64,000 nt of DNA. It comes from Thermotoga profunda AZM34c06. Lineage in GTDB: Bacteria; Thermotogota; Thermotogae; Thermotogales; DSM-5069. This document shows positions 4,424 to 7,262 of this stretch, piece by piece (within the stretch, counting starts at the first letter, position 1; each line of letters starts with the position of its first letter). Location: NCBI RefSeq assembly GCF_000828675.1, contig NZ_AP014510.1:1941413-2005412 (forward strand), read 5' to 3'. The notes beneath the pieces are model-generated. The model did not search any database. It was not told where the DNA came from and was given only the letters and a program-made list of their open reading frames with translations. A program made the translations under genes and the position numbers.

Positions 4424-5839
4424 TCATCTCCAAGGATCATATTCACCCGAGAGAAATTTATCTATCCAATAAGCTGCCCTCTTACCTGCGCCCATCGCTT
4501 CAATAACGGTTGCTGCTCCCGTTACTATATCTCCACCGGCAAAAACTTTCCTAAGGCTGGTTGCACCAGTTTCACTATCGGCAATTACATAACCATATTT
4601 GTTGAGTGTCAAGCCTTTGAACTGACTCAGCAAAAATCTATTTGCATCTGTACCTATAGCCTCCACAACCATATCGGTTTCTATTATAAATCTACTATCT
4701 TCGATCGGAATAGGTCTTCTCCTTCCAGATTCGTCTGGCTCACCAAGTTCCATACTTATGCACTCAACTCCAGTTACTCTACCTTTCTCATCTCCTATGT
4801 ATCTGAGTGGTTGAGTCAACCATTTGAATTTTATACCCTCTTCAACAGCATGGAGATATTCCTCTCTTCGAGCAGGCATTTCTTGTTCCGTTCTTCTGTA
4901 GACAACTACTACATCCTTTGCTCCCAATCTCAAGGCACTCCTTGCCGCATCCATTGCAACATTTCCACCACCAACTATCACAACATTTTTCCCTTTTTTC
5001 ACAGGTGTATCGTACTCTGGGAATAGATATGCCTTCATGAGATTAACCCTGGTCAAAAATTCATTGGCAGAATAAACTCCATTGAGATTTGTACCTGGTA
5101 TTTTCATAAACTTTGGTGTACCTGCACCAACACCTATAAAGATTGCATCATATTTGTCCAAAAGCTCTTCAACTGGTATTGCCTTACCAACAGGTGTGTT
5201 CAAATGAATTTTCACCGATAATGATTCAATATACCTGACTTCTCTTTCAACTATTGATTTTGGCAATCTAAACTCTGGTATACCATAAACCAATACCCCA
5301 CCAGGTTTGTGTAAGGTTTCAAAAATATCAACTGAATATCCCATCTTTGCAAGATCTGCCGCAACAGTTAGTCCGGCTGGGCCAGAGCCGATTACTGCGA
5401 TCTTCTTTTCTCTCGGAGGTTGTGGATCCACTTTTAAATCTTTAATATTGGCTGCTTCCCAGTCTGCCACAAATCGTTCAAGTCTACCAATTGCAACTGG
5501 CTCTGAACCAGGTATTTTACCGACAACACATTTTTCCTCACATTGAACCTCCTGTGGGCAAACTCTCCCACATATCGCAGGAAGATTGTTGTATTTTTTG
5601 AGAATCTTTGCAGATTCTTCAAAGTTTCCTTCTTTGATTTTTCTTATGAAACCCGGTATATCTATACCCACTGGACAACCACTCACACATGGATGTGCTG
5701 GACATTGTAAGCATCTTCTTGCCTCGAGAACTGCTTGTTCTTCAGAGTAACCAAGTGCAACTTCAGAGAAATTCTTAATTCTCTCATGGGGTTCCTGCTC
5801 TGGCATTGGTGTTTTTCTCGCTGGTGGTCTTACAGCCAC
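4424..5839 (-). CDS. nfnB: NADH-dependent ferredoxin:NADP+ oxidoreductase, large subunit (NfnB, GltD-like)
   Basis: Large subunit of the flavin-bifurcating Nfn transhydrogenase, which couples reduced ferredoxin and NADH oxidation to reduction of two NADP+. The N-terminus carries two cysteine clusters for 4Fe-4S centres (CLQCPAHPCVSGCPVG and CGRVCPQEVQCEEKC). Two Rossmann motifs follow, for FAD (IGSGPAGLTVAADLA, about residue 150) and NADP (VVIVGGGNVAMDAA, about 290), and a GGD...GAATVIEAMGAGKRAA ending. The 471-residue length fits NfnB. The same fold serves as glutamate synthase small subunit, but the adjacent nfnA, overlapping by 10 bp, makes Nfn the better call. Confidence 0.92.
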   Translation of the reverse strand: MAVRPPARKTPMPEQEPHERIKNFSEVALGYSEEQAVLEARRCLQCPAHPCVSGCPVGIDIPGFIRKIKEGNFEESAKILKKYNNLPAICGRVCPQEVQCEEKCVVGKIPGSEPVAIGRLERFVADWEAANIKDLKVDPQPPREKKIAVIGSGPAGLTVAADLAKMGYSVDIFETLHKPGGVLVYGIPEFRLPKSIVEREVRYIESLSVKIHLNTPVGKAIPVEELLDKYDAIFIGVGAGTPKFMKIPGTNLNGVYSANEFLTRVNLMKAYLFPEYDTPVKKGKNVVIVGGGNVAMDAARSALRLGAKDVVVVYRRTEQEMPARREEYLHAVEEGIKFKWLTQPLRYIGDEKGRVTGVECISMELGEPDESGRRRPIPIEDSRFIIETDMVVEAIGTDANRFLLSQFKGLTLNKYGYVIADSETGATSLRKVFAGGDIVTGAATVIEAMGAGKRAAYWIDKFLSGEYDPWR

Positions 5840-6669
5840 GAAAGATCACCCACACTTTCTTTGAATTTTTTCAAACTCAACTCTTCTTCCTCTCGATATT
5901 GAGTCAATCTCATGAGCAATTCATCCCAATCAACCTTTGTTCCATCGAATTCCGGGCCATCAACGCATGCAAATTTCATCTGGCCATCCACTGTAACTCT
6001 GCAAGCACCACACATACCCGTTCCATCTACCATGATTGGGTTCAAAGACACCCAAATCTTCAATCCAATTTCCTTGGCTTTGAGACTACAGAACTTCATC
6101 ATGATAGTCGGTCCGACGGCCCAAGCGATATCTATTCTCGCTTTGCTCATGACTAAATCCATACCATCTGTGACAACACCTTTCAAACCCATTGAACCAT
6201 CATCTGTTGTGACAATCAATTCGTCAGCGAATTTTTCAAATTCTTCGAGCATTATCACATATTCTTTACTACGCCCTCCCAGTACGACAAACAACTTGTT
6301 GTTGTGTTTCTTGAGCTCCTTTGCGATTGGCAGTAACGTTGCTATACCAACTCCACCACCAACCAACATAACATTTCCAAAATGTTCTATCTCGCTTGGA
6401 TTACCCAAAGGTCCTATAACATCTGCCAAAAAATCGTTCTCATTTTTCATACACAACTCGTATGTGGTCTTTCCAACTGCTCTCACAACCATGCGAAAGC
6501 TGTCTTCATAGATATCAGCTATCGTCAAAGGTATCCGTTCACCTTTCTCAGTGGTTCTCACTACAACAAATTGTCCTGCCCTTGCCTTACTGGATATTTG
6601 GTGATTCTCTACAACAAAATCATATACCTGGGGTGCGAGTTTTGATTTTCTTATAATCCTGTTTTCCAA
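5830..6669 (-). CDS. nfnA: NADH-dependent ferredoxin:NADP+ oxidoreductase, small subunit (NfnA)
   Basis: Small subunit of Nfn, related to ferredoxin-NADP reductases and PyrK. A beta-barrel FAD domain (about residues 1-100) is followed by an NAD-binding domain opening with VMLVGGGVGIATLLPIA. A C-terminal cysteine set (GMCGACRV ... FACVDGP) should hold a 2Fe-2S cluster. The start is a TTG at 6669 preceded by AGGAGGTG with 7-nt spacing. The reading frame overlaps nfnB, giving a translationally coupled pair. Together they would supply NADPH from ferredoxin and NADH, in keeping with the Etf-dehydrogenase and FeFe hydrogenase elsewhere in the window. Confidence 0.92.
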   Translation of the reverse strand: MENRIIRKSKLAPQVYDFVVENHQISSKARAGQFVVVRTTEKGERIPLTIADIYEDSFRMVVRAVGKTTYELCMKNENDFLADVIGPLGNPSEIEHFGNVMLVGGGVGIATLLPIAKELKKHNNKLFVVLGGRSKEYVIMLEEFEKFADELIVTTDDGSMGLKGVVTDGMDLVMSKARIDIAWAVGPTIMMKFCSLKAKEIGLKIWVSLNPIMVDGTGMCGACRVTVDGQMKFACVDGPEFDGTKVDWDELLMRLTQYREEEELSLKKFKESVGDLSWL

Positions 6670-6721
6670 AATCTTTCACCTCCTCTAAACTTCTCTGTCC
6701 CTGTCTATTTAATTATAGACA

Positions 6722-6750
6722 TTGACATGTAACAACTTTAGGGTTAATAT
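6722..6750 (+). promoter_or_regulatory. consensus sigma-70 promoter of the C-rich RNA
   Basis: TTGACA at 6722-6727, an exact 17-bp spacer, and TATAAT-like TAATAT at 6745-6750 on the plus strand. Both flanking genes run leftward, so this promoter drives neither. It points straight into the structured RNA that ends at 6840. Confidence 0.8.
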
Positions 6751-6757
6751 TTTTATT

Positions 6758-6835
6758 GGACAGCGACCCCCCTATCCCCCCTTGGATGGAACCAAGCTGC
6801 CTGAGGAGCCTGCACAAGACGGGCTCCTCTTTTCC
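6758..6835 (+). ncRNA. candidate small RNA with paired C6 tracts
   Basis: A roughly 78-nt transcript is predicted from the promoter to a rho-independent terminator. GG(A)CAGC at 6758-6764 pairs with GCUGCC at 6796-6801, with one bulged A. A second helix UUGG/CCAA (6782-6785 / 6792-6795) sits directly against it and closes an AUGGAA loop. Between them lies an unpaired GACCCCCCUAUCCCCCC segment (6765-6781) with two C6 runs. The terminator is GAGGAGCC / GGCUCCUC (6803-6810 / 6822-6829) followed by UUUUCCUUUUU. I recognise no known family. Exposed C-runs could base-pair with G-rich ribosome binding sites, which is inference. Confidence 0.68.
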
Positions 6836-6843
6836 TTTTTCAT

Positions 6844-6899: not shown

Positions 6900-7262
6900 T
6901 CAAAAAAGCCATGGAACAAAAAAGTGGATAAAGAAAAGTACTATGACTACAAAGTCCGTGTATCTGTGAAAGATCATCCATCGTTTCTTTAAGAACTTTC
7001 TCAGAAGATAATACACAAAAAGTAACACTATCCCAAGCCAGAGAATAAATCCCGTGTGGAATGTTATTCTGCCGAGTGCCAAATAACCATGCAGGATACC
7101 AGTTGCCACTAAAGTAAAACCCGTAAATCTGTGTATCTTTGACCCGTATTGTAAAAACTTTCTCATTGTTCTGAAATTCTTGAAAATTCTGCGCATTGGA
7201 AAAAGTGAAAAATTATAAAAAAGCAGTACAACGCTTATCCATGCAAAAATTTTGTACATCAT
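6900..7262 (-). CDS. small membrane protein with paired H-x13-H haem-ligand pattern
   Basis: A 120-residue inner-membrane protein with about four hydrophobic helices (near 5-22, 45-65, 68-90, 100-120). Histidines 44 and 58, and 99 and 113, form two H-x13-H pairs on separate helices. That is the spacing used for two stacked b-type haems in ferric reductase, NADPH oxidase and cytochrome b domains. No flavin or NAD domain is attached, so another protein must supply electrons. Its start overlaps by 4 bp the stop of the cytochrome b5-like gene at 7259, which strongly suggests joint function. The haem assignment comes from pattern only. Confidence 0.65.
   Translation of the reverse strand: MMYKIFAWISVVLLFYNFSLFPMRRIFKNFRTMRKFLQYGSKIHRFTGFTLVATGILHGYLALGRITFHTGFILWLGIVLLFVYYLLRKFLKKRWMIFHRYTDFVVIVLFFIHFFVPWLF

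Follow-up and report, generated by a model that had tools for sequence, protein, structure and literature searches.

Locus of the predicted small RNA

The window, that is, the whole 64,000-nt stretch of Thermotoga profunda AZM34c06 that was analysed, carries at 5830-6669 (minus strand) a gene for an NfnA-type FAD/NAD subunit of an NADPH-linked oxidoreductase, which adjoins a GltA-like partner, and at 6900-7262 (minus strand) an ORF of 120 aa without a name, beside a cytochrome b5-like protein. Between them, on the plus strand and opposite in direction to both flanking genes, as an earlier note on this sequence had described, we found a sigma-70-type promoter at 6722-6750. Its -35 box (TTGACA, 6722-6727) and -10 box (TAATAT, 6745-6750) are separated by a spacer of 17 nt and match the sigma-70 consensus in 10 of 12 positions. 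An intrinsic terminator lies at 6803-6839 (plus strand), where a stem of 10 bp, 7 of them GC (6803-6829), is followed by the T-rich tail TTTTCCTTTT. The consensus promoter and the strong terminator claimed for this strand are therefore both present within 6722-6839. Transcription is predicted to start near 6757-6758, and the putative RNA of about 80 nt would cover 6757-6839 (plus strand), with its 5' end placed from the promoter and its 3' end from the terminator.

The sequence CCCCCCTATCCCCCC is found between promoter and terminator at 6767-6781 (plus strand). It comprises a near-invariant first tract of six C (6767-6772), a UAU that is nearly invariant across the phylum (6773-6775) and a second tract of six C (6776-6781). 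A C6-N3-C6 arrangement with at most one mismatch occurs once in the whole window against 0.01 expected, and the C runs are indeed as exceptional in this AT-rich sequence as had been suggested. Single C6 runs are below chance in the window (3 against 7 expected), with two of the three belonging to this element.

The nfnA gene, which is divergent, has a TATAAT-like box of its own on the minus strand at about 6712-6717 (within 6705-6727). The -35 region of nfnA overlaps that of the small RNA, making the divergent promoters overlapping, and the two may compete.

Conservation across Thermotogota and a paralogous copy

A BLAST search of 60 relatives recovered the element from a large part of the order, and GCAGCGACCCCCCTATCCCCCCTTG is unchanged or almost unchanged even between genera with widely differing flanks. 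A sequence-only model of the core found it in 93 of 103 Thermotogota genomes, so that the C tracts, whose loss in close relatives the earlier note had named as a reason to give up the idea, turned out to be strongly kept. A pattern search of the 103 genomes showed that many of them have a second site, a paralogue. We call the RNA of the window type A and the paralogue type B.

Type B consists of GACCCCCCTATCCCCCTTGAGATACACCCCCCACGGCTTTG and then a terminator, and is near-invariant in Pseudothermotoga, Thermotoga, Fervidobacterium and Thermosipho. It contains three C tracts, in the arrangement C6-UAU-C5-UUGAGAUACA-C6-ACGGC (G000:C1:1352345). According to the core model, two copies are present in most genomes of families f1, f3 and f5 and in some of f11, and a single copy is present in Thermotoga (type B), in family f9 and in most genomes of genus g31; the model found no core in three genera of f2 and in 2 of the 3 genomes of f4. 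Some genera have C5 where others have C6, a one-base difference in tract length. The motif UUGGA is kept in type A, while AUGGA is limited to the family of the window and the type B copies have no GGA. When about 85,000 species genomes were searched for the exact A and B pattern, 14 stretches were recovered, all 14 from Thermotogota, and the pattern was not found in viral contigs.

A probable stand-alone RNA gene

Of 83 copies, 79 are followed by a terminator and 24 are preceded by a promoter-like sequence; at 300 background positions the corresponding counts are 13 and 7. The neighbouring genes differ by family: nfnA in Pseudothermotoga, dnaB in Thermosipho and others elsewhere. The element thus has what is generally expected of a trans-acting sRNA gene, with its own promoter and intrinsic terminator and without a fixed neighbour. 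Neither type A nor type B matched anything in Rfam 15 even at E<=10, where only scores at chance level were obtained, and the 14-nt core strings were not found in the literature searched. Together with the promoter, the terminator and the phylum-wide conservation, these searches bear out the earlier proposal of an undescribed small RNA. That types A and B form a previously undescribed small RNA family is likely, and well supported by the sequence comparisons.

Of the 83 copies of types A and B, 67 have TAACA-like words upstream, where shuffled sequence gives about 27. In the window, the word takes the form TAAC-N9-GTTA and lies in the promoter spacer (6730-6746). These words are perhaps a transcription-factor site common to both types.

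Fold of the type A RNA

The predicted type A RNA folds better than its shuffles (z-score -4.7). In the lowest-energy fold (-13.4 kcal/mol), CUAUCC pairs with GGAUGG and CCCCUU forms the loop of the inner hairpin CUAUCC-CCCCUU-GGAUGG (6772-6789, plus strand). This remains the lowest-energy fold up to 70 C, with the first C tract open except for its last base, and the second tract partly in the stem and partly in the loop. An outer helix is predicted between GG and CAGC at 6758-6764 and GCUG and CC at 6796-6801 (plus strand), with incomplete conservation across genera: it is present in the genus of the window and in some other copies but missing from the Fervidobacteriaceae copies, which rules it out as a feature of the family. 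The earlier note had drawn a closed domain with both C tracts in one bulge (outer CAGC/GCUG, with UUGG paired to CCAA inside). That fold reaches only -6.5 kcal/mol and its closing helix is lineage-specific, and we do not retain it.

The UAU can pair with a flanking AUA on either side in 57 of 99 sequences, against 20 +/- 3.8 when the flanks were shuffled, a signal that is understated because the 99 include sequences that are not genuine copies. Examples are UAUC-CCCCUUGA-GAUA in type B, CUAUCC-CCCCUU-GGAUAG (L024, L046) and GGAUA-CCCCCC-UAUCC in f5. For type B, RNAalifold returned only the 4-bp UAUC/GAUA stem, without covariation. A conserved weak hairpin presenting one C run in its loop is likely; it is graded no higher since the stem does not covary, the sequences are related, and the AUA-pairing hairpin is missing from type A of Fervidobacteriaceae. 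Pairing of a C tract with the terminator stem, as in antitermination, was ruled out by inspection, the terminator of the window having no G5 run.

Relation to 6C and to the ncRNAs of Thermotoga maritima

In mycobacteria, a 5' UTR with six G is repressed through either of the C-rich loops of the B11/6C sRNA (PMC10470900). Like 6C/B11, types A and B would be small stand-alone RNAs with runs of about six C that are open or in loops. Pairing with G-rich ribosome-binding sites (RBS) would be expected in both cases, here from a computed excess over controls. The differences are nevertheless considerable. 6C has two stem-loops, each with about six C in the loop, a layout that neither type shows: type A has one hairpin with the loop CCCCUU and the first tract outside it, and in type B no hairpin exceeds 4 bp. 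6C is found in Actinobacteria, whereas all 14 stretches with the exact A and B pattern in the species genomes searched are from Thermotogota. In addition, unlike in 6C, two tracts with UAU between them form one element, there is a three-tract paralogue, and the RNA is short and terminator-ended in AT-rich thermophiles. The Rfam covariance model of 6C matched none of ten type A and B loci at E<=10, and nothing in the window at the gathering score.

Types A and B are not members of 6C, since the model is unmatched, the two-hairpin layout is absent and the phylum is different. By analogy, it is likely that they work like 6C. The earlier note had called the RNA reminiscent of 6C in principle but different in fold.

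T. maritima has been described as having few ncRNAs (PMC3636130). From its transcriptome, Latif et al. (2013) listed putative ncRNAs, 12 according to the abstract and 13 according to the text (PMC3636130). The passages of that paper on these RNAs state that their secondary structure could not be defined, and they propose no conserved family (PMC3636130). The type B copy of T. maritima (G021:C1:934707-934730, minus strand) may be one of the putative ncRNAs listed there (PMC3636130), and so has possibly already been seen as a transcript. A Thermotogae genome was also among those included in a search for RNAs in 26 genomes, as described there (PMC8632094).

Complementarity to ribosome-binding sites

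Complementarity of gene starts to both types was examined in sampled DNA, against controls in which the C tracts were left intact and all remaining letters permuted. In G012, leaving out two stretches picked for known hits (comM and dprA), 5 starts have an exact complement to type A of at least 10 nt, against 0.68 in controls, and 2 have one to type B of at least 12 nt, against 0.06. Pooled RBS hits of at least 11 nt amount to 4 against 0.6 for type A (three genomes; 0 of 60 controls as high) and to 5 against 1.7 for type B (four genomes; 2 of 60 controls as high). The genome of the window itself gives a weak signal, with 2 starts of at least 10 nt against 0.36 for type A and 2 against 0.95 for type B. 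The signal is also weak in the sampled T. maritima DNA beyond cas8b, and in the sampled DNA of G041 alone the excess is not significant. The suggestion that the C runs would be ideal for pairing with G-rich sequences is thus supported computationally, by RBS complementarity above that of C-tract-keeping controls.

The pattern GGGGGATAGGGNH, designed to leave out the RNA genes themselves, gave 58 matches in the 103 genomes, compared with about 36 when the pattern was reversed, and many of the 58 lie exactly at start codons. Candidates at start sites are comM in Fervidobacterium and dprA in three Fervidobacterium genomes; others are a Thermosipho metallophosphoesterase, a pilin-like ORF and cas8b (TM1802 family) in T. 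maritima and a near relative. The genome G021 is the one that we take to be T. maritima, with which its cas_TM1802 match is consistent. The comM RBS GGGGGATAGG is kept in 6 of 8 genomes of Fervidobacterium and its sister genus, whereas comM of Pseudothermotoga and Thermotoga mostly has an ordinary RBS. Targets are not common to different families, which rules out comM and dprA as universal ones.

For ATCTCAAGGGGG, a complement of type B, there were 19 matches against 3 for the reversed pattern, and those within families f1-f3 are mostly at gene starts. The excess of this pattern alone is modest when compared with permutations of ATCTC. G-rich Shine-Dalgarno sites are common, and permuted patterns remove part of the pattern excess. 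Among the best sites, together with comM and dprA of Fervidobacterium and cas8b of G021, is a perfect 18-nt complement of type B at the start of a GGDEF (diguanylate cyclase) gene (L391) in two near-identical Fervidobacterium species. Further start-site candidates with ATCTCAAGGGGG are a CHASE4-GGDEF protein, a pilin-like protein, a purine permease and an ATPase. In G041, purH (13 nt) and guaA (10 nt) are complementary to the third tract of type B, and guaA was found again in G012. The long complement AAGGGGGGATAGGGGG, with at most 3 mismatches, showed no overall excess in 11 genomes and only one orthologous site, and a GGGGNNNGGG-ATG search was set aside as too broad. The genes named are candidates only, and from these comparisons the target sets appear to differ between lineages.

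Some other observations concern these genes. Purine genes recur among the type B candidates: guaA in two genomes, purH and a Thermosipho xanthine/uracil permease. Purine-gene candidate sites with complementarity to type B lie at L348 8920, L451 13359, L447 1676, L395 1523 and L396 1523. Among 340 sampled gene starts of G021, cas8b (L385 7229-9737, minus strand) has the strongest predicted type B pairing, and the gene after it, cas7, ranks among the first six. A Rho_N/DUF4912 gene with GGGGGATAGGG as RBS starts about 240 nt from a type B-like core (L139 and L140, 1500-1760), which places the RNA beside a possible target; in several genomes of Fervidobacterium, a distance of about 650 nt separates type A and dprA.

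Proposed function and alternatives

We propose, with a probability of about 0.7, that the locus encodes a trans-acting sRNA (type A) of a two-member Thermotogota family, which would mask G-rich RBS and block translation. The sigma-70 promoter and intrinsic terminator would yield an RNA of about 80 nt whose C6-UAU-C6 core is kept single-stranded or in the loop of a weak C-rich hairpin. This core would pair with G-rich RBS of the AAGGGGGGAUAGGG type beside start codons and thereby prevent translation, while the third C tract of type B would allow pairing over longer stretches (UAUCCCCCUUGAGAUACACCCCCCACGG). The sequences show promoter and terminator signals, a conserved core, a paralogue and changing neighbours, and an RBS excess over controls was computed; from these we infer the production of the RNA, its pairing in the cell and the translational repression by that pairing. 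The earlier interpretation is kept as far as the small RNA and, computationally, the G-rich pairing are concerned; its exact fold is not, and type B, the extent of the family and the possible target genes had escaped it.

A different use of the same RNA would be that of a protein-binding RNA or sponge, with base pairing secondary and a protein titrated by the C tracts or by a CsrA-like GGA of the type A hairpin (AUGGA in the genus of the window). A sponge would fit the strict conservation of the C number and of the UAU, which exceeds what simple pairing with diverse RBS calls for, and the retention of UUGGA in type A. However, AUGGA occurs only in the window's family, GGA is missing from type B, and RBS complementarity above C-tract-keeping controls is unexpected for a pure protein sponge. 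We consider this explanation rather unlikely.

The other alternatives deny that a trans-acting RNA is made. For a leader, attenuator or riboswitch acting in cis on the following gene, the copies of Thermosipho could be cited, as dnaB lies about 90 nt downstream on the same strand. Nevertheless, the upstream gene has the opposite direction in the window, as it does in every Pseudothermotoga copy whose neighbour could be read, and in most of these copies the downstream gene does too; the terminators, the promoter-like sequences upstream and the changing neighbours make a leader or attenuator highly improbable. It is very unlikely, too, that the element acts as DNA, for instance as a protein-binding or recombination site. 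Long C/G tracts at a fixed spacing could be a binding site, and the RNA is known from sequence alone; against this stand the promoter-like sequences, the terminators at a fixed place and the presence of just one or two copies per genome. A small protein gene is hardly credible. A 69-aa ORF with a TTG start does cover the element, in the frame ...PPYPPLDG..., but this start lies inside the promoter, third codon positions are conserved too, and conservation ends in the terminator stem. The change between C5 and C6 is a shift of one base between genera, which would break the frame and makes a protein unlikely.

Returning to the trans-acting sRNA, the candidates would allow a wider and much more tentative picture, in which the sibling pair is a global post-transcriptional switch. 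It would possibly act on DNA uptake and processing (comM, dprA, pilin-like), CRISPR-Cas (cas8b), c-di-GMP synthesis by GGDEF proteins, and the metabolism and transport of purines (guaA, purH, xanthine/uracil permease), with target sets that change between lineages around a constant seed; we regard this as doubtful. If the phylum-wide sRNA pair is real, its almost unchanging seed would define a global RNA regulator in a deep-branching phylum, and a second, apparently unrelated case of a C-tract RNA acting on G-rich RBS would join the actinobacterial 6C. The pairing of C tracts would then have to work at 60-80 C. Natural transformation has been described for Thermotoga (PMC4029938), which makes direct testing possible.

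An in-gene complement and other repeats

Within the genus of the window, the best match to type A is CAAGGGGGGATAGGGG, inside a predicted surface-protein gene. It was found at about position 1500 of L117, L116, L115 and L124, from four species of the Pseudothermotoga group, with a match length of 16 nt in two species, 15 nt in that of the window and 13 nt in the fourth. The codons GGG GGG ATA GGG are identical in all four, forming the longest such run of this gene, in which the codon is kept at 42 of 142 conserved residues.

The sequence AATTGATGGTGGGGGGTGTTCCACTAATAAGAAGATAATACGGT, which carries an 11-nt complement of type B, occurs five times in the sampled DNA of Fervidobacterium G041 (L437 7050; L439 12400; L447 1578, 18257 and 18339). 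Finally, the inverted repeat TTGCATAAAAAAATCCCCTCTTTTGAGGTATAATTATCTCAAGGGGG is common to two f9 genomes, where it precedes unrelated genes (L389 and L390, about 1465-1515), and is perhaps a mobile or regulatory element.
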